This document shows positions 3,483 through 33,550 of a DNA stretch of 33,591 nucleotides, in pieces. Position numbers and translations under genes: made by a program. The stretch is from Isosphaera sp. (GTDB taxonomy: Bacteria; Planctomycetota; Planctomycetia; Gemmatales; Gemmataceae): contig PNKH01000084.1 of assembly GCA_013822345.1 (NCBI GenBank), positions 1-33,591 of the forward strand, given 5' to 3'. Below the pieces are notes generated by a model that ran no database searches, was not told where the DNA came from, and saw nothing but the letters and a program-made list of their open reading frames with translations. Numbering within the stretch: position 1 is the stretch's first letter; the number at the start of each line of letters is the position of its first letter.

Positions 3483-7544
<4,062 letters not shown>

Positions 7545-7599
7545 CGCTCCCTCCTGCTCCGGCCTCTCCGTTGATCGTAGTCGCGGCCCCGGGGTCGGC

Positions 7600-9003
7600 T
7601 CAAACCCCCATCTCCTGGTAACTCCGGGCGATCTTCCGGATGGCCACCGCGTAAGCCGCGGTCCGCAAATCCGGTGCCCGTTTACGGGTGTGCCACTCCT
7701 CGCGGATTTCCTGGTACGCCCGCCGCATCGTATCGTCCAACCCGGACCGGATGACATCCAGTTCGTCCGCCCCGGCCCGCAGCCGGGCGGCCGCCTCCGG
7801 TGGCAGCGGCCGGCCGACCGCCGCCTCGATCGCCGCGACCGCCCGGTCGGCCCGCAGCTCGTGGATGCGGCGGTCCATCCGGCCGAACCGGATGTGCGAC
7901 AGGTTCTTGATCCACTCGAAGTACGACACCGTCACCCCGCCGGCGTTCAGGTAGAAGTCCGGGATGACGACCACCCCCCCGGCCCGGCAGGATCTCGTCC
8001 GCCTCGAACGTGACCGGGCCGTTCGCCGCCTCGGCCACCAGCCGCGCCCGGATGCGGTGGGTGTTGGCGGCCGTGACCTGGTTCTCCAGGGCGGCCGGGA
8101 GGAGGATGTCGCAGTCGGCCTCCAGCGCGGCCGCCCGGTCGGGGTCGAACCGTGCCCCGGGGAACCCCTTCAGCCCGCCGGTTTCCCGCCGGTGCTCGGC
8201 CAGCCTCTCGATGTGGAGGCCGGCCGCGTCGAACACCGCCCCGTCCCGCTCGATCACCCCCACCACCCGCGCCCCGTCCTCCTCGGACAGGAACTTGGCC
8301 GCGTGGTAGCCGACGTTCCCCAGCCCCTGGACGATCACCCGCTTGCCGGCGAGCGTGCCGGTCAGCCCGGCCCGGGCGGCGTCCTCGGGGTGGCGGAAGA
8401 ACTCCCGCAGCCCGTACTGGACGCCCCGGCCGGTGGCCTCCACCCGCCCGCGGATGCCGCTCTGGGTGGCCGGCTTGCCGGTCACGCAGGCCAGGGCGCT
8501 GATGTCGTCCGGGAACATCCGCCGGTACTCGTCGGCCACCCACGCCATCTCCCGCGGCCCGGTCCCGATGTCCGGGGCCGGGACGTTCACGCTCGGGCTG
8601 ATGAAGTGCCGGCGGGCCAGCTCCCGGGTGAACGCCCGGGTGATCGCCTCCAACTCGTCCGCGGTGTACTGGGCCGGGTCGAGGCACAGCCCGCCCTTCG
8701 ACCCGCCGAACGGGATGTCCACCACGGCGCACTTGTACGACATGAGGGCGGCCAGGGCCTCGACCTCGTCCTGGTCCACCACCGGGGCGTACCGGATGCC
8801 GCCCTTCGTCGGCAGCCGACGAACACCTGGTACTGGCCGCGGATGCGGACCGGGAACCGCACCTGGTACACGGCCCGGCAGTGCTTCATGACGGCCGCCA
8901 GCCCGGGGTCGAGGCCGACGGCGGCGGCCGCCCGGTCGAACATCCGGTGGACGCTCCCCAGGAAGGACGACGGCCCGGCGGGGCGAAGGTTCCGTTCCGG
9001 CAC
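7600..9003 (-). pseudogene. Glu/Leu/Phe/Val dehydrogenase, broken by two lesions
   Basis: Three pieces in two frame changes add up to a glutamate dehydrogenase-type enzyme of about 460 residues (oxidative deamination of Glu to 2-oxoglutarate with NAD(P)). Piece one (GTG 9003 with AGGAGG upstream) runs to GQYQVFVG. Piece two begins PTKGGIRYAPVV and contains FGGSKGGLCLDP, VPAPDIGTGPREMAW and the Rossmann motif VIVQGLGNVG. Piece three begins VVIPDFYLNAGGVTVSYFEW and ends at 7600. Lesion one (8805-8823) removes the segment normally reading like YRVQHN..RG before PTKGG, about 28 nt, and shifts the frame. Lesion two is a run of seven G on the coding strand (7974-7980) where six would restore the frame. 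Everything else is well conserved with native codon use, so the damage is recent or is a sequence/assembly error. It is placed between the PepSY-like protein and the hybrid kinase. Confidence 0.85.
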
Positions 9004-26433: not shown

Positions 26434-26510
26434 GCCGGGCGAACCGCGACCGTCCGGGAGCGGGTGACGCCCACCGACACCCGCTCCCGGACGGTCGCGG
26501 TTCGCCCGGC
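26434..26510. repeat. Long REP-like hairpin, copy 1
   Basis: The arms 26434-26466 and 26478-26510 are perfectly complementary over 33 bp with an 11-nt loop. The left arm begins GCCGGGCGAACCGCGACCGT and ends GGGAGCGGGTG. It lies 20 nt beyond the stop of the 1126-residue paralogue gene and 73 bp upstream of the DUF1501 GTG. A near-identical hairpin lies at 29946-30017. No T-tract follows. Confidence 0.92.
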
Positions 26511-26530: not shown

Positions 26531-29500
26531 TCACCCCAACCCTTGCCCGCGGAGGACGGCGGCGAGGTCCCGGTGCACCCGGCTGCGGATCAGGAACTCG
26601 TCGTCGTCCAGCCAGTCCCGGACGGCCGGGCCGAGCGCGAAGTCGTCAGTCACCACCGCCCGCACCACCGCGTCGACCAGGCGGAGCGGCTGGAGGGTGA
26701 AGTACCGGTTCGTCGACCCGGACACCTCGACCGGCCCGAGCCGCTGGAACAGCTCCTCCAGCCGGCCGTGCGCCACCCGGGTCGGGGCGGAACCCAGGGC
26801 CTCGGCGTAGGCGACGGCCAGGGGGGTGCGGGTCCGCGGGGTCGCAGCCGGGTCGAGGTACAGCGCGTCCCGCGCCTCGTCGAGCAGCCGCGTCCCCGCC
26901 TCCTCGTCGCCGGCCGCGAACCACCCGGCCGCCAGCGCCACGCCGAGCGGGTCGGCCCCCCGCGCCGACCGCCCCGGGTCGACGACCTGGAGTAGGGCGT
27001 CGGCCCCCGCGCCGGCCCGGCGGGCGGCCCGGAACGCCGGCCCGGCGGCCGCCAGCAGCGCCGGCCGGAGCCGGTCCCCGCCGGCGGTGAGCCGGCGGAC
27101 CAGGTCGGCGACCGCGGCCGGGGTGGGCGGGTCGAGGGCGGCCGCGGCGGCGAACCCGGCGGCCAGCATCCGCCCGCGGTAACGCACCAGCGCCGCCGGC
27201 CGCTCGTCGTCCGGCCACGGCCCGGCGGCGATCCACGCCTCGGCCCAGTCGACCGCCGCCGGGAGGAGGTCGAGCAGGCGGAGGACGGCGGCCTGGTCGA
27301 GCCGGGGCGCGTGCCCGAGGAGAGTGAGCACCACCCGCGGGACGGTGTCGGTAGCCGGGCGGTCGGCGCAGAGCCGGAGGAGGGCGTCGGCCTCGGTCGC
27401 GAGGTCCTCCGGCTCGGGCGACGCGGCCAGCACGCCGAGCCGCTCGCCGAGCCGGTCTGACCCGCGGAACGTCTTGCCGTCCGGGCCGCCGAACGCCCCC
27501 GGCCGGCCGCGCGGCTCCAACACCCGCGACTGCTCGCGGAGCCGCTCGGCGGCGTACCGGGCCAGCTCCGGGAGGGCGTCGAACCGGGCCCGGAGGTCGG
27601 GCGGGAGGCCGGGCTTCGGCGGCCGGCCCTCGACCGCGTCGCGCACCCGGAGGAGGAACAGGTCGCCGAGGGCGGCGTGCAACTTGGGGTCGGCCCCCGG
27701 CCCGGCCGCCGCGGCGACCGCCTTGCGGGCGCGGGCCGCCCAGTCCTTCGCCCGGGTCCGCTCCCCGAGGCACCCGAGGCCCCACGCGAGGAGGAACTGG
27801 GCGTAGGCCGCGGTGCCGTCCGTCTCGGCGTCGAGCCCGGCCCACCGGAGCACCCCGCCGCCGTGCTTCCGCACCCACCCGAGCACCGGCTCCCGGGCCC
27901 GCACCAGGAAGTCGCGGGCGGCCTGGAACCGGTCGGCGGTGGCCGTCCCGTGGAACCGGACGAACGACGGCTCGTCGAGGTCCAGCCCCGGCCCGCGGTC
28001 GCCGAGCCGGGCGAGGACCCGGTCGCGCCACCGGGCCAGGCCGAGGGCGTCCCCGTCGCACGCCCGGGCGGCCGCCAGCCGGGCCAGCCACGCCGCCCGC
28101 ACCGGCACCTCGTCGAACTGCCCGTCGAGCAGGGCGAGGAGGCGGGGGAGGGCGGCCACGTAGCCGGGGTCCGGGGCCGCCCCGGCCGCCGCGACGAACG
28201 CCGCGACCACCCGCCCGACCCCCGGCCGGCCCGGCTCGCCGAGCCACCGCTCGGGGTCGGGGGCGTCGCCGAACTTCCCCGCCCGCAGCTCGGCCGCGAG
28301 CCACTGGCCGAGCCACGCCGGGGGCGGGGTCGGAACCTCCCACACCGCGTTCAGCCAGCACACCGCGGCGTCGGCCGGGTTGCCGGTCGCCCCGTACGCA
28401 GCGGCGAGGTCGGCCCACCGCCCGGCCCGCCCGGCCGGGTCGAGCCGCGGCAGGTCGCGGTACACCCGGTCCTCCAGCTCGCGCCGCCGGGCCGCCCGGT
28501 CGCCGCCGTGCAGGAGGGCGTCCGGCGACGCGACCGCCCGTCCCCCGCGCCCGGCCGGCGGCGGGTCCGGGCGCGGCTCGGGCGTCGGGGTCGCCCGCGC
28601 CGGGAGCAGCCGGGCGACCAGCTTCCGGAGCGACTGCCCCCACCACCCCGGCGCCTCGGGCCGTTCGACCGCCGGCACGTCCGGTTCGTCCGCGAGGTCG
28701 ACGACCGGCTCGGGCTTCGCCGGTGGGTCGGTCGGGGCGGCGAACCGCGGCAGCGGGAACGGGTCGGCGCGCGGCGCGGCGGCGAGCACGCGGGGCGGCG
28801 GGGCTTCGTAGACCAGGCGGTCGGCGAGCGGCCGGAAGGCCGACGCCGGCACGCCGTGGGCGACCAGCCCGCCGGCCGCCGGCTCGACCCACACGACCCG
28901 GTCCGTCGCCGTTCCGAGCACCACGGCCAGCTCGCGCACGCGGGCGGCGGGCTTCAACACCCGGTCCGACGGGACGAACAGCCCGGGCACCCGCGGGTCG
29001 GCGGCGAACCCGCGGAGGAGCAGCGGCAGGGCCGGCGGCAGACGCTTCCCGGCCAGGCGGAGGACCAGCCGGGCGTCCGCCCCGGAAGCCACCGTCGCCA
29101 CCTCCAGCCGCCGCAGCAGGCGCTCGTCGGCGGTCCGGCAGAACGCCCAGAACTCGGCCGCCGCGTCCGGGCCGAGCACCCACAGCGACTCCTCGACCGG
29201 GACCGGCCGGGGGCCGAGCGTGAGGCGGACCGCAACCGGCGGGGGCGACGGGGCAGGGGGGGTGGGCGTGCCGCGCCGGGGCGACAGCCGGAACTCGTCC
29301 GCGGCGGGGGCCGGCACCTCGCCCGCTACCGCCCGCACCGACCGCGGCGGGTCGGCGAGCACGACGCCTCCGCCGGGGACCGGGAGCAGGTCGGGGGCCG
29401 GGTGCCGCCACCCGCACCGCACCCACACCCCCGCGGCCTGCTCGGCGTAAGCCGCCAGCCCCGCCTCCGGGTCGGCCGCGTCGCGGACCAGGCCCGGGGT

Positions 29501-29911
29501 CGTGGCCGCGACACTCACCCATCCGCACGCCGGGTCGGCGTCCGGCAGGCGCACCCCGACCGGGCCGCGGGTCTCGCGGCGGAGGCGGGCGACGAAGGCG
29601 GAGAGCCGCGGGGCGGGGACGACGACCAGGAACGGGCCGGCGGGCGGGTCGGAATCGGGTTGGAGGTCGAGGAGTTCGCCCCAGCTCCCGGCCGGGGCGG
29701 TCGGGACCGCGGCCGCGGCGTGGGTCCGCACCCCGAGGCGGGCGAGGGCGGCGAGCGACTCGCGCGGCACCGGCCCGGCCGGCTCGACCCACACCGGCCC
29801 GGCCGGGTCGTGGCCGGCGGCCGCCGAGGCGCGGGCGACGGCCGGCGGGACCAGCCCGCTCGTCAGGGCCAGCCGCAGGACGCTCGGGTTCGGGAAGCAC
29901 AGCGCCGGCAT
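26531..29911 (-). CDS. Large uncharacterised paralogue A (possible ternary-system bpX-type protein)
   Basis: A 1126-residue protein, collinear with the neighbouring gene at 30029-33550. It starts MPALCFPNPSVLRLALTSGL and has no signal peptide or membrane helix, so cytoplasmic. An N-terminal mixed alpha/beta part (1-390) is followed by a Pro/Arg-rich linker (about 395-470) and a long helical, TPR-like part (470-1126). Blocks shared with the paralogue include AAVCWLNAVWEVPTPPPAW, VPVRAAWLARL, LGLARWRDRVLARL, RLREQSRVLEP and the C-terminal VVTDDFALGPAVRDWLDDDE. No nucleotide-binding motif was found. ATG 29911 is fixed by alignment with the paralogue because no SD is present. I recall planctomycete MoxR-vWA-beta-propeller ternary systems with large accessory proteins of this style, but the link is unverified. 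Followed at 20 nt by hairpin copy 1. Confidence 0.78.
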   Translation of the reverse strand: MPALCFPNPSVLRLALTSGLVPPAVARASAAAGHDPAGPVWVEPAGPVPRESLAALARLGVRTHAAAAVPTAPAGSWGELLDLQPDSDPPAGPFLVVVPAPRLSAFVARLRRETRGPVGVRLPDADPACGWVSVAATTPGLVRDAADPEAGLAAYAEQAAGVWVRCGWRHPAPDLLPVPGGGVVLADPPRSVRAVAGEVPAPAADEFRLSPRRGTPTPPAPSPPPVAVRLTLGPRPVPVEESLWVLGPDAAAEFWAFCRTADERLLRRLEVATVASGADARLVLRLAGKRLPPALPLLLRGFAADPRVPGLFVPSDRVLKPAARVRELAVVLGTATDRVVWVEPAAGGLVAHGVPASAFRPLADRLVYEAPPPRVLAAAPRADPFPLPRFAAPTDPPAKPEPVVDLADEPDVPAVERPEAPGWWGQSLRKLVARLLPARATPTPEPRPDPPPAGRGGRAVASPDALLHGGDRAARRRELEDRVYRDLPRLDPAGRAGRWADLAAAYGATGNPADAAVCWLNAVWEVPTPPPAWLGQWLAAELRAGKFGDAPDPERWLGEPGRPGVGRVVAAFVAAAGAAPDPGYVAALPRLLALLDGQFDEVPVRAAWLARLAAARACDGDALGLARWRDRVLARLGDRGPGLDLDEPSFVRFHGTATADRFQAARDFLVRAREPVLGWVRKHGGGVLRWAGLDAETDGTAAYAQFLLAWGLGCLGERTRAKDWAARARKAVAAAAGPGADPKLHAALGDLFLLRVRDAVEGRPPKPGLPPDLRARFDALPELARYAAERLREQSRVLEPRGRPGAFGGPDGKTFRGSDRLGERLGVLAASPEPEDLATEADALLRLCADRPATDTVPRVVLTLLGHAPRLDQAAVLRLLDLLPAAVDWAEAWIAAGPWPDDERPAALVRYRGRMLAAGFAAAAALDPPTPAAVADLVRRLTAGGDRLRPALLAAAGPAFRAARRAGAGADALLQVVDPGRSARGADPLGVALAAGWFAAGDEEAGTRLLDEARDALYLDPAATPRTRTPLAVAYAEALGSAPTRVAHGRLEELFQRLGPVEVSGSTNRYFTLQPLRLVDAVVRAVVTDDFALGPAVRDWLDDDEFLIRSRVHRDLAAVLRGQGLG

Positions 29912-29945
29912 GCCCGGGAAGTGTAGTGCGCGGCGGCCGGGGTCT

Positions 29946-30017
29946 GGCGAACCGCGACCGTCAGGGAGCGGGTGGTTCTCTCCTCCGGCACCCGCTCCCT
30001 GACGGTCGCGGTTCGCC
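29946..30017. repeat. Long REP-like hairpin, copy 2
   Basis: The arms 29946-29974 and 29989-30017 pair perfectly over 29 bp with a 14-nt loop. The left arm GGCGAACCGCGACCGTCAGG differs from copy 1 by a single C-to-A change, matched by the complementary change in the other arm. It lies 11 nt past the stop of paralogue B and 34 nt upstream of the start of paralogue A, so it would be intercistronic if the two are cotranscribed. Confidence 0.92.
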
Positions 30018-30028
30018 CGGCTCGGATG

Positions 30029-33000
30029 TCACCCGTGGCCCTTCTCCAGCGCCGCCAGGTGCCGCCGCATGTCCGCGTGCACCCGCCGGCGGACGAGGTA
30101 CTCGTCGTCGTCCAGCCACCGCCGGCCGGCCGGGCCGAGGGCGAAGTCGTCGCTCACCACCGCCCGGACCACCTCCTCCACCAGGTTCAGGTGGTACCGG
30201 GAGTAGTACTGGGCGGTGGTCCAGTTGTTGTTGATCTTCTTCTCGTCCATCTTCCGGAACAGCTCGGTGATCCGGGCCAGCCCCGACTCCGACGGCCCCT
30301 GCCCGAGCGCCGCCACGTACGCCCGGGCCAGCGGGGTGTAGTCCTTCGGCTGGAACTTGGCCGCGCCGGACCCGAGCAGCTCGGTCCGGGCCTCGTCCAG
30401 GATCGGGGCGGCCCGGTCCTGCAGCCCGAACGTCAGCCACCCGGCCGCCAGGTTCAGGAGCGTCTGCAGGGCCGCCCCCCACGCCTCCGGCCGGGCCGCG
30501 TGCCGCCGCCGCAGCTCGGCCGGGGTCGCCCCGCGGAGCACCTCGGCGTGCAGCCGGGTCAGGAGCCGGTCGATCTCGTCCCGCAGCCCCAGCTTCTTCA
30601 GGCTCCGCAGACACTGCCCGGCGACCACGTTGATCAGGTTGAACCGGGCCTCCTCCGGGCGGGCGGCGACCAGCCCGGCGAACTCGTCCACCAGCCCCTT
30701 CACCAGGTCCCCGCGGTCGAAGTGACCGGCCAGGAACAGGGCCCGCTCGAGCAACTCGCCCAGCCGCCGGGTGGCGTACGGGGACTCGGCCGGCCCGGGC
30801 CCCGGCCCCCCGGCCAGGGCCGCCGGGACGTACTGCAGGAGCTCCACCGCGAACCCCTCCCCGGCCCGCGGGGCCAGCAGCAGGGTCTCGTGCAGCACCT
30901 CCTGCTGAACCTCCCGCGGCGCCCCGCCCCCGGCCCCCTGCCGGTACAGCCGGCGGACCCGGTCGGCGAGCCGGGCCGGGTCCCGGACGGCGTGCAGGTC
31001 GGACAGCTCCTTCCGCAGGGCGTCCTGGGTCCGGGTGAACAGGGCGTACGGGTCCAGCCGCTCCTGCGGCTCGATCACCCGGGACTGCTCCCGCAGCCGG
31101 TTGATGACGTACTCGGCCCGGGTGAACGGGTTGTTCGTCCCCCCGGCCTTCCCCTTCGCCCGGATGTCCTCCAGCTCGGCCACCAGCTCGGCCGCCAGCG
31201 GCCCGGTCCGGGGCAGCCCGGCCAGCACCTGGTCCACCCGGTACTTGTACGCCTTGAACAGGAAGTTCTGGGTCACCGCCGCCACCACCGCCTCGAAGTG
31301 CCGGGGGTCCTGCCACGCCGCCGGGACCGGCTTCTCCAGCTCCCTCCGGGCGTCCTCCACCAGGGCCCCGGCCCGCGTCCCCTCCTGCAGCCGGGCCAGG
31401 GCGTAGGCGAACAGCAGGTCCACGTAGGGCAGGTTCCGCAGCAGGTGGTCGCCGCCCTGGGCCTGGGCCCGGGCCGACCGCTCCACCCACCTCCGGACCT
31501 CGGCGTGCAGCTCCCCCGCCTTGTCCTTCACCACCCGCAGCCGCTCAGAGTCCTTGTGCCCGGAGAACCGCAGGAACCCGGGCAGGTCCCGCTCCGCCTG
31601 CAGCCCCTGTTCGAGGAGCCGCTGGAGCAGCCGGTCCCGCACCCGCGCCAGCCCGAGCACGTCCGCCCCGGCCAGCTGCGACAGCCGGTAGCCCGCGAGC
31701 CACACCGCCCGCACCGGCAGCGTCCCCTCGTACTTCTCCAGGTACGCCTGGACGGCCGGCAGCCGGGCGGTCAGCCAGGCCGGCACCGGGCTTTGCGCGG
31801 CCAGGGCCAGGAACCCGGCGACCACCGCCCGGCTGTCCTCCTGCGACGGGGCCGGGTTCGCCAGCCGCGTGTCGAACTCGTCCGCCTTCACCGCCCCGGT
31901 CGTCCCCGGCCACTCCGCCCGGGCCCACCCGGCGACCCACCCGGGCGGGGGCGGGTCGGCGTCCCACAGGGCGTTCAGCCAGCAGACCGCGGCCTCGGCC
32001 CGCGACCCCTCCCCGGCGTTGGCCGCCGCCAGCTCCGGCCACAGGGCGACCCGCCCGGGGGCGTCGAGCCCGCCGTCGACCTCCAGGAACTCCTTCTCCA
32101 GCGCCTCCCGGCGGAGCTTCCACTCGCTCGGCGGGCGCGGCGCCTCGGGGGCCGGCAGGAACGCGTCCGCCGGGCGGGCCGCGGCCGGCCTCCCCTTCGC
32201 GCCCTTCGCCGGGGCGGCCGGCCCGCGCGGGCCGCGCGGCTCGTCCTCGTCGCGCCCCTTCCCGTTCTTGTCCCCCTTGTCCGACTTCGGCTTCGGCCCC
32301 CCGCCCGGGTCCCTGCAGACGAAGTGGTCGAAGTCGAACCGGGTCGCCCCGACCCACGCGGCGAGCGGCTCCTGCTCCGCCTCGATGACGTAGTCGACCC
32401 AGTCCTCCAGCGACCGGAACGCCGCGTCCGGGACGCTCTGCGGGGTGAACCCGCCGTCCGCCCCCGGGTGGAGCCACACCACCTGGTCGGCGTCGTCGGC
32501 GAGGAGCTTCCGGACGGCGTCCCGGCGGAGGGTCGGGTGGAGCCGCCGGCCGACCGGGACGAACAGGTTCGGGAGCTTCCAGAACGGCTTGAAGGCGAGG
32601 GCGTCCTCCAGGGCCAGGGCCGGCGGGGCGAGCTTCGACGGGCGGGTCCGGAGCACCACCGTCCGCTTGCCGTCGGGGCCGGCGGCGACGGCGAACATGA
32701 GCCGCTGGGTGAGCCGGTCGTCCGAGTCGCGGACGAGGCCGTCGAGCTGGGCGACCGCGTCCCCGCCGAGCACCCACAGCTCGGGCACGTCGGCGGCGTT
32801 CCCGGCGGCCAGCCGGAGCGGGACGGACATCTTCCCCGGGGCGGCGGCCTCGGCCCACGCCCGCGGGGCGGCCGGGAGCTTGAACTGGAGGGCGTCGTAG
32901 ATGTCCTGGAACGGGGCGTCGTCCAGGTAGACCCACTCCCGCGGGGCGCGGACCAGCAGGAGTTGCCCGTCCGGGGCGCGGACCTGGCCGGCCAGCGGGT

Positions 33001-33550
33001 GGGCGTGGCCGGCCTCGACCCACACCCGCGGGGCCCGCTCCAGGTACGCCCGGACCGCCCCGGCCGTCCCGGCGGCCGACGGGTCGAGGGCCCGCAGCAG
33101 GGTGTAGTACGGCGGGCCGACGACGCGGAGCAGGACGCGGCGCGGGTCCGGGTCGCCGGGGGCGGCGAACCACCGGAACCCCTGCCGGTCGTTCCCGAGC
33201 CGGAGCATCTCTGCGGCGAGCGTCGGCAGATCGTCCGCGTCCGCCAGCTCGAACAGGACCGGGGCCTGGTTCGACACCACCGGGGTGCCGGACTCGCGGA
33301 CGACCGGCAGCACCTGCATCCAGCAGGACACGTCCTCGGGGGCGTCGGTGGCGTGCCGCTTCGACCCCTTCACCCCGAGCTTGTCGAGGCCCCGGACCGT
33401 CGCCTTCGCCAGGCCCGCCGCCGACTCCAGGTAGATCTTCCCGTCCGGGTCGAACGAGACCGCGGCCGGGGAGGTGGTGACCTCCGGCGGGACGACCCCG
33501 CCGGTCAGCGCGAGGCGCAGGGTGTCGGCGTTCGGGAACAGGAGGATCAT
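30029..33550 (-). CDS. Large uncharacterised paralogue B (possible ternary-system bpX-type protein)
   Basis: A 1173-residue protein starting MILLFPNADTLRLALTGGVV, without signal peptide or membrane helices. The N-terminal alpha/beta part (1-400) includes VSCWMQVLPVVRESGTPVVS, APVLFELADADDLPTLAAEM and VVGPPYYTLLRALD. A charged low-complexity linker (about 410-470, KPKSDKGDKNGKGRDEDEPR) follows, then a helical solenoid-like region with AEAAVCWLNALWDADPPPPG, ADVLGLARVRDRLLQRLLEQ, FTRAEYVINRLREQSRVIEP and the C-terminal VVRAVVSDDFALGPAGRRWL. Of the last 35 shared C-terminal positions, 27 are identical to paralogue A. No ATPase or nuclease motif is visible. ATG 33550 is supported by paralogue alignment; no SD is present. 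The gene is 41 bp from the window edge, so upstream partners are out of sight. Function unknown; assignment to a MoxR/vWA-type ternary system is a hypothesis. Confidence 0.8.
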   Translation of the reverse strand: MILLFPNADTLRLALTGGVVPPEVTTSPAAVSFDPDGKIYLESAAGLAKATVRGLDKLGVKGSKRHATDAPEDVSCWMQVLPVVRESGTPVVSNQAPVLFELADADDLPTLAAEMLRLGNDRQGFRWFAAPGDPDPRRVLLRVVGPPYYTLLRALDPSAAGTAGAVRAYLERAPRVWVEAGHAHPLAGQVRAPDGQLLLVRAPREWVYLDDAPFQDIYDALQFKLPAAPRAWAEAAAPGKMSVPLRLAAGNAADVPELWVLGGDAVAQLDGLVRDSDDRLTQRLMFAVAAGPDGKRTVVLRTRPSKLAPPALALEDALAFKPFWKLPNLFVPVGRRLHPTLRRDAVRKLLADDADQVVWLHPGADGGFTPQSVPDAAFRSLEDWVDYVIEAEQEPLAAWVGATRFDFDHFVCRDPGGGPKPKSDKGDKNGKGRDEDEPRGPRGPAAPAKGAKGRPAAARPADAFLPAPEAPRPPSEWKLRREALEKEFLEVDGGLDAPGRVALWPELAAANAGEGSRAEAAVCWLNALWDADPPPPGWVAGWARAEWPGTTGAVKADEFDTRLANPAPSQEDSRAVVAGFLALAAQSPVPAWLTARLPAVQAYLEKYEGTLPVRAVWLAGYRLSQLAGADVLGLARVRDRLLQRLLEQGLQAERDLPGFLRFSGHKDSERLRVVKDKAGELHAEVRRWVERSARAQAQGGDHLLRNLPYVDLLFAYALARLQEGTRAGALVEDARRELEKPVPAAWQDPRHFEAVVAAVTQNFLFKAYKYRVDQVLAGLPRTGPLAAELVAELEDIRAKGKAGGTNNPFTRAEYVINRLREQSRVIEPQERLDPYALFTRTQDALRKELSDLHAVRDPARLADRVRRLYRQGAGGGAPREVQQEVLHETLLLAPRAGEGFAVELLQYVPAALAGGPGPGPAESPYATRRLGELLERALFLAGHFDRGDLVKGLVDEFAGLVAARPEEARFNLINVVAGQCLRSLKKLGLRDEIDRLLTRLHAEVLRGATPAELRRRHAARPEAWGAALQTLLNLAAGWLTFGLQDRAAPILDEARTELLGSGAAKFQPKDYTPLARAYVAALGQGPSESGLARITELFRKMDEKKINNNWTTAQYYSRYHLNLVEEVVRAVVSDDFALGPAGRRWLDDDEYLVRRRVHADMRRHLAALEKGHG

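Follow-up and report, generated by a model that had tools for sequence, protein, structure and literature searches.

Contig PNKH01000084.1 of the planctomycete Isosphaera sp. carries two adjacent genes for giant proteins, here named X7a and X7b. The whole contig (33,591 bases; C84 of genome G000 in our numbering) is the window analyzed here. We consider it probable that X7a and X7b are paralogous subunits of a planctomycete FtsH-type MoxR system ("fvm"), in which they most likely serve as large scaffold or adaptor arms. Both proteins belong to the fvmX7 family, a conserved operon accompanies the pair in relatives, one particular MoxR co-occurs with X7 across genomes, the predicted structure is a head, a linker and a solenoid, and second copies group together in a tree. 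A testable picture of a two-ring AAA+ machine emerges from the clean operon, the statistical association with one MoxR, an FtsH that bears a protease and an apparently missing vWA component.

The two open reading frames (ORFs) have the boundaries and the minus-strand orientation first annotated for them (Table 1), and the motifs LRLALT, AAVCWLNA and RLREQSRV each occur in both proteins. The best 35-residue window of the C-terminal region contains 27 identities between X7a and X7b, as the first-pass annotation had reported. The same annotation described the proteins as otherwise widely diverged. This does not hold, as their alignment covers essentially the full length of both, with identity in 394 of 1233 columns (32%) and a BLASTP E value of 7e-98; it scores 325 bits, compared with 27.3 bits for the best of 200 shuffled copies of the second protein. 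Catalytic motifs had been reported as absent, and Walker A, HExxH and D-x-S-x-S patterns occur in neither giant.

Table 1 Features of the X7 pair and of the adjacent repeats in the window
Feature	Coordinates	Strand	Evidence
X7a, first giant paralogue, fvmX7 family	30029..33550	-	ORF of 1173 residues; PF20005 E 1.8e-117; AlphaFold mean pLDDT 85.5
X7a residues 1-403, alpha/beta head	32342..33550	-	fvmX7 profile over residues 2-390; secondary structure of AlphaFold model
X7a residues 404-473, disordered Lys/Pro-rich linker	32132..32341	-	pLDDT <50 over residues 403-463
X7a residues 474-1173, all-helical solenoid tail	30032..32131	-	AlphaFold model; weak generic HEAT/importin-type matches
X7b, second giant paralogue, faster-evolving copy	26531..29911	-	ORF of 1126 residues; PF20005 E 2.3e-51; second-copy group in tree
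X7b residues 1-368, fvmX7 head match	28808..29911	-	PF20005 profile
Dispersed palindrome, near-perfect, between the giants	29946..30017	.	hairpin z -10.4
Second copy of dispersed palindrome, downstream of X7b	26434..26506	.	hairpin z -12.8

Both giants match the Pfam family PF20005 (fvmX7, "FtsH ternary system domain X7"), X7a with 393.4 bits and X7b with 175.6 bits against a curated cut-off of 24 bits. Neither matched any other Pfam family, including the VMAP and bpX domains, at E values up to 1, and an NCBIfam search of both returned nothing. Of the profile families suggested at first pass, the FtsH-ternary one is therefore matched by both proteins and VMAP and bpX by neither; a VMAP, bpX or catalytic identity was rejected on the Pfam, NCBIfam and motif scans. 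The system had been called uncharacterised, which is not correct in the sense of unlisted, since the family is already named in Pfam. Our literature search found no experimental study of fvm genes; in the papers it retrieved, the families are based on a single computational study (Kaur, Burroughs, Iyer, Aravind 2020, eLife 9:e52696, PMC7159879). The fit of planctomycete genes to the fvm models is so good that these genes were probably considered when the models were built, and the authors of that paper may already have noted the points made here.

An AlphaFold2 model of X7a, based on 54 sequences, has a mean pLDDT (predicted local distance difference test) of 85.5 and a predicted template modelling score (pTM) of 0.64. 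Its mixed alpha/beta structure extends to about residue 403, followed by disorder over residues 403-463 and by helices from there to the C-terminus. The helical solenoid is predicted to be about 700 residues long. A profile search of the PDB with X7 picked out designed helical repeats, with a small number of other matches that were weak, and Foldseek found no match to the model at E 0.001 (best E 1.6e-3, TM <0.2). The combination of head, linker and solenoid in the model makes it most likely that X7 serves as a scaffold or adaptor arm.

Because the window is a complete contig, C84 holds no sequence past its right edge, and the genes upstream of the pair were examined elsewhere. In the one-contig genome G043 of the same genus, Pfam identifies upstream of the pair an fvmX3-analog, FtsH (AAA and Peptidase_M41), fvmX5, fvmX6, a radical SAM protein and RTC (RNA 3'-phosphate cyclase), the gene order being rSAM-X6-X5-FtsH-X3an-X7a-X7b. 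This order recurs, whole or in part, in other relatives and is unbroken where contigs are longer. The Isosphaera genome itself has fvmX6 on contig C62, whose left end carries, all in the same orientation and in the order given here, X3-analog, FtsH, X5, X6, radical SAM and RTC; C62 and C84 are separate contigs, each with an operon part at its edge.

To count partner genes we fetched 50 named loci with an X7a alignment, many of them cut by contig ends, and scored the partners by tblastn. The X3-analog is present in 42 of the 50 loci, FtsH in 33 (one on the opposite strand, one a distant partial match), X5 in 24, X6 in 22 and radical SAM (Pfam PF13353/PF04055) in 20, and a piece best matched by X7b occurs in 16. 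Radical SAM was not seen at L191 (G309). All 50 loci come from planctomycetes, but the scan used two peptide patterns and says nothing firm about other groups. ORF comparison around MoxR and X7 gave further ORFs common to at least three loci, of unlike kinds and places and some of them out-of-frame readings; one turned out to be the ordinary MoxR described below. RTC lies directly upstream of radical SAM in Gemmata-like genomes (L040:11922-13649, L061:6569-8143; 15 of 50 loci, one distant).

Behind X7 in several relatives lies a gene with the P-loop GPPGTAKS. In 14 of the 50 loci (many others end early) this MoxR follows X7 at a distance of no more than 1 kb, the motif being present in 12 of 13 MoxR copies, and in L162 and L166 it adjoins a tandem X7 pair, full or in part. 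The copy of Limnoglobus roseus matches Pfam bpMoxR (PF20030, E 9.5e-60), and RavA is the only close solved relative of the TAKS MoxR (E 1.2e-37). A close counterpart was found in all 15 genomes searched, with 71-86% identity outside the query genome; in the Isosphaera genome it is at C160:9716-10714.

The association of this MoxR with X7 is also apparent across genomes. Of 61 sampled genomes of the same family, 46 have X7, 44 the TAKS MoxR (E up to 1e-60) and 42 X5. X7 and MoxR occur together in 43 genomes, X7 alone in three, MoxR alone in one and neither in 14 (Fisher p 4e-10); by genus the corresponding counts are 27, two, one and nine (p 2e-6), both p values overstating the evidence since the genomes are related and the counts are not phylogenetically independent. 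The two genes are at most 10 kb apart in 19 of the 43 genomes. The 24 others include broken assemblies, yet also the one-contig genomes G043, G008, G032 and G001; thus, the co-occurrence is not explained by linkage alone.

Six of the 50 loci have a second, ordinary MoxR close to the operon, with the P-loop GVAKT rather than TAKS and an identity of 84-91% (for example L138:2361-3347), and two further loci have one at 43-52%. In three of the six (L136, L137, L138) it lies beside RTC on the opposite strand; in the other three (L140, L145, L147) it follows X7b at a distance of several kb. It was not found in the examined stretches of the Isosphaera genome or of G043.

From the 50 loci we compared 28 FtsH copies; partial copies, one on the opposite strand and those below 50% identity were excluded. 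HExxH is present in all 28 (as HEAGH in 24), Walker B in all 28 and Walker A in 27. The FtsH of Limnoglobus roseus resembles the FtsH metalloprotease in aligning, over residues 259-697, with the AAA and protease parts of solved FtsH (E 1.6e-60); its AAA stretch scores higher against VCP-like ATPases (E 8e-95). The FtsH of the X7 operon differs from that enzyme in having an extra N-terminal region lacking a P-loop, and the Isosphaera copy also in being probably soluble. FtsH proteins of ternary systems are described as having two AAA copies, an active one of FtsH type, which the planctomycete proteins share, and an inactive one at the N-terminus (PMC7159879); none of the 28 copies has a Walker A motif within its first 250 residues. 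In the Isosphaera FtsH the maximum 19-residue mean hydropathy is 1.45, and the lack of a strongly hydrophobic segment indicates that the protein is probably soluble. The gene (L061:354-3953, C62) is split by an intein (Pfam Intein_splicing and LAGLIDADG_3) in the AAA domain, between 'WVGE' and 'SEENLR', which begins with Ser and ends with VHN. At that position in the FtsH of one relative (L141:3-242) lies the tail of an intein related to it (82%).

The FtsH-type ternary system is defined by MoxR, vWA and FtsH together (Kaur et al. 2020, PMC7159879), so the vWA component was sought in several ways. In G051, G043 and G309, the three one- or two-contig genomes covered by the general VWA search, the 20 kb around the operon and around MoxR contain no VWA_2 match at E up to 0.1. 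The nearest is about 24 kb away in G051 and about 75 kb away in G309; in G043 it is about 118 kb from MoxR, the distance to the operon being about 510 kb. VWA_CoxE was not found nearby in any of 11 genomes, its matches there being no closer than those of VWA_2. A scan for a hydrophobic residue followed by D-x-S-x-S in 16 loci around Gemmata-type operons gave one match, in a reading unlike vWA.

Two candidates for the vWA component were considered and rejected. X6 is all-helical in a model (pLDDT 92) built from 18 of 22 copies (L152, L167, L168 and L174 left out), with no Foldseek match at E 0.001. An 862-residue ORF behind MoxR in Limnoglobus roseus contains D-x-S-x-S, but has no vWA match in Pfam (E up to 0.05) or with VWA_2 and no counterpart common to three loci at that position; this rejection is weak. 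On contig C38 of the Isosphaera genome, a MoxR with a weak VWA_2 neighbour adjoins a giant DEAD-helicase protein and DUF6744, and was not accepted as part of the X7 system. This cluster (L186:5614-17567), comprising a bpMoxR, the weak VWA_2 protein, DUF6744 and the DEAD-helicase protein of 1958 residues, may belong to a mobile element or represent another MoxR-vWA system. The vWA domains of ternary systems are described as highly divergent (PMC7159879), and on that account a hidden vWA may be present, above all in the X7 head.

Of the known systems, the FtsH-containing MoxR-vWA ternary system (PMC7159879; Pfam fvmX series) is most closely paralleled in gene content: fvmX7, fvmX6, fvmX5, fvmX3-analog, an FtsH-type AAA protein, a GxxxTAKS MoxR and radical SAM are common to both. 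The planctomycete loci differ in the duplication of X7, in a TAKS MoxR that lies apart from X7 in the window's genus, in having no detected vWA nearby, and in an FtsH with the M41 protease and its HExxH, which the published section does not mention. Ubiquitin-like conjugation genes and caspase/EAD effectors are assigned to the complex type only, the simple type having radical SAM (PMC7159879); neither group appears among the Pfam matches of the operon genes scanned, the genomes themselves not having been searched for them. The GXXXTAKS P-loop is frequent in FtsH-type and propeller-type systems (PMC7159879). With the beta-propeller MoxR-vWA ternary system the MoxR (Limnoglobus roseus copy) shares both this P-loop and the bpMoxR match, but FtsH and X proteins are present here and no propeller gene, one of the kinds that the first pass proposed to look for, was recognised among the operon genes scanned. 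RavA-ViaA is similar through RavA as the nearest solved relative, whereas the planctomycete loci have the additional FtsH and giant X proteins and, in the 11 genomes, no VWA_CoxE near. The affiliation with MoxR-vWA or FtsH-ternary systems proposed at first pass thus stands with regard to the fvmX7 profile, the operon (FtsH, X5, X6, X3-analog, radical SAM) and the MoxR, adjacent in many X7 genomes, but is not supported with regard to vWA. Neither observation that the first pass had named as refuting it was made.

None of 14 control genomes contains a PF20005 match. Of 297 genomes sampled across the class, 67 have X7. Outside the family of the Isosphaera genome, X7 was detected in eight of about 220 class-survey genomes, one of them below the cut-off. 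X5 is present in ten of 246 genomes of a phylum sample, the Isosphaera genome included. Within the window's genus, 16 of 17 genomes, again including this one, have two X7 matches (some cut by contig ends); the seventeenth genome is 82% complete. Between the Isosphaera genome and G043, identity is 83-86% for FtsH and X5, 76% for radical SAM, 69% for X6, 64% for X7a, 58% for the X3-analog and 48% for X7b. In G363, X7b (L189:7109-10540) is about 2 Mb from X7a and is matched over residues 1-1125.

An X7 tree was calculated from 54 rows, comprising 52 of 56 usable locus copies and the two window proteins; it leaves out L143, L148 and both L167 copies (redundant), L183 (which has a stop) and second copies matched only in pieces. 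The 11 second copies correspond to one label change, with a support of 99 in the Shimodaira-Hasegawa-like approximate likelihood ratio test (SH-aLRT), in what is a quick tree of sequences with uneven amino-acid make-up. This suggests that the second X7 copy arose once. X7b branches are longer than those of X7a. Trees of X7a and MoxR from 15 genomes have several groups in common (G016/G056; the window's genus; G051/G034; G024/G028/G039). They conflict on G032, which is with the genus in the X7a tree, where two rows are very long, and with G051/G034 in the MoxR tree.

If X7 is a scaffold, its alpha/beta head and solenoid would dock X6, X5, the X3-analog and clients onto two AAA+ rings. The MoxR ring would remodel or disassemble the complex, while the FtsH ring, probably soluble and protease-bearing, would unfold, degrade or process the client. 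X6, X5 and the X3-analog would be fixed partners, one of which the radical SAM enzyme may modify. The physical assembly of this complex is an inference, as are its handling of substrates and a division of labour between X7a and X7b. Several observations weigh against the scaffold reading besides the relatedness of the genomes counted. In the window's own genus, X7 does not have the GPPGTAKS MoxR as a neighbour, and four genomes of the family sample have one of the two without the other. The solenoid resemblances of X7 (importin-beta, transportin, designed repeats) are generic: the best VIA-align Z score, 12.7 over 209 residues, is within the common arrangement for helical repeats, and the VIA-align matches are solenoids only, the head being barely covered and never as a separate model.

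Kaur et al. (2020, PMC7159879) placed FtsH-type MoxR systems among conflict systems, with radical SAM as the effector in the simpler type. Applied to the planctomycete genes, X7 would be sensors or platforms, MoxR and FtsH would set a threshold, and radical SAM with a small protein, perhaps the X3-analog, would make an infection-stopping effector against invaders. The lower conservation of X7b and the X3-analog relative to FtsH agrees with this possible but doubtful role. However, the same gene set recurs and no variable effector was recognised among the neighbouring ORFs scanned (not every one was), two X7 matches are kept nearly throughout the genus, and the X7a and MoxR trees share several groups despite the frequent lack of linkage between the two genes, a pattern that resembles vertical inheritance. 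PADLOC-DB gave no match to the giants, X6 or the X3-analog, matches of FtsH to other AAA or homing-endonuclease models, and weak matches only for X5, radical SAM and MoxR. A gene set that stays constant and is kept almost universally in the genus fits a standing cellular machine at least as well as a conflict system. The label "ternary conflict system" is open to question for the planctomycete branch. A more speculative proposal, to which we give a rather low chance, is that the planctomycete machine lacks vWA altogether: duplicated X7 giants would replace the vWA co-chaperone as the arm linking a RavA-like MoxR ring to a soluble FtsH ring. In Gemmata and its relatives it would then be a core machine passed on vertically rather than an immune system of the hypervariable kind.

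The X7 proteins could also be the cargo of the FtsH/MoxR pair, as large structural proteins that need a dedicated chaperone-protease for their assembly. MoxR-type proteins help to assemble other complexes (PMC7159879), and the size of X7, its solenoid shape and its lower conservation than FtsH and X5 would suit a client; we nevertheless regard this as unlikely. The patchy occurrence of X7 outside the family argues against a general planctomycete structural need. Much less probable still is that X7b is a decaying duplicate with no function of its own. Its longer branches point in that direction, as do the failure to find it beside X7a in some relatives (L136, L138) and second copies found only in pieces in L149 and L166, where the L166 frame has 804 residues. 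On the other hand, the reading frame is uninterrupted in all ten second copies whose match exceeds 2900 bases (shorter matches are outside this count), the genus retains two X7 matches almost without exception, and the distant X7b of G363 is still matched over nearly its whole length.

The palindromes beside the giants are about 75 bp long and form very stable hairpins, with some 45 or more further places in the genome. The search gave 94 rows on both strands, including the query itself and three other short matches. They are probably not part of the protein system, and the gap between C84 and C62 might hold another copy. The downstream gene encodes a DUF1501 protein (E 7.6e-76) and was entered in no count. 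In the window, positions 3483-7757 encode a fusion protein of 1424 residues with CheB, CheR, PAS, histidine kinase and response regulator domains.

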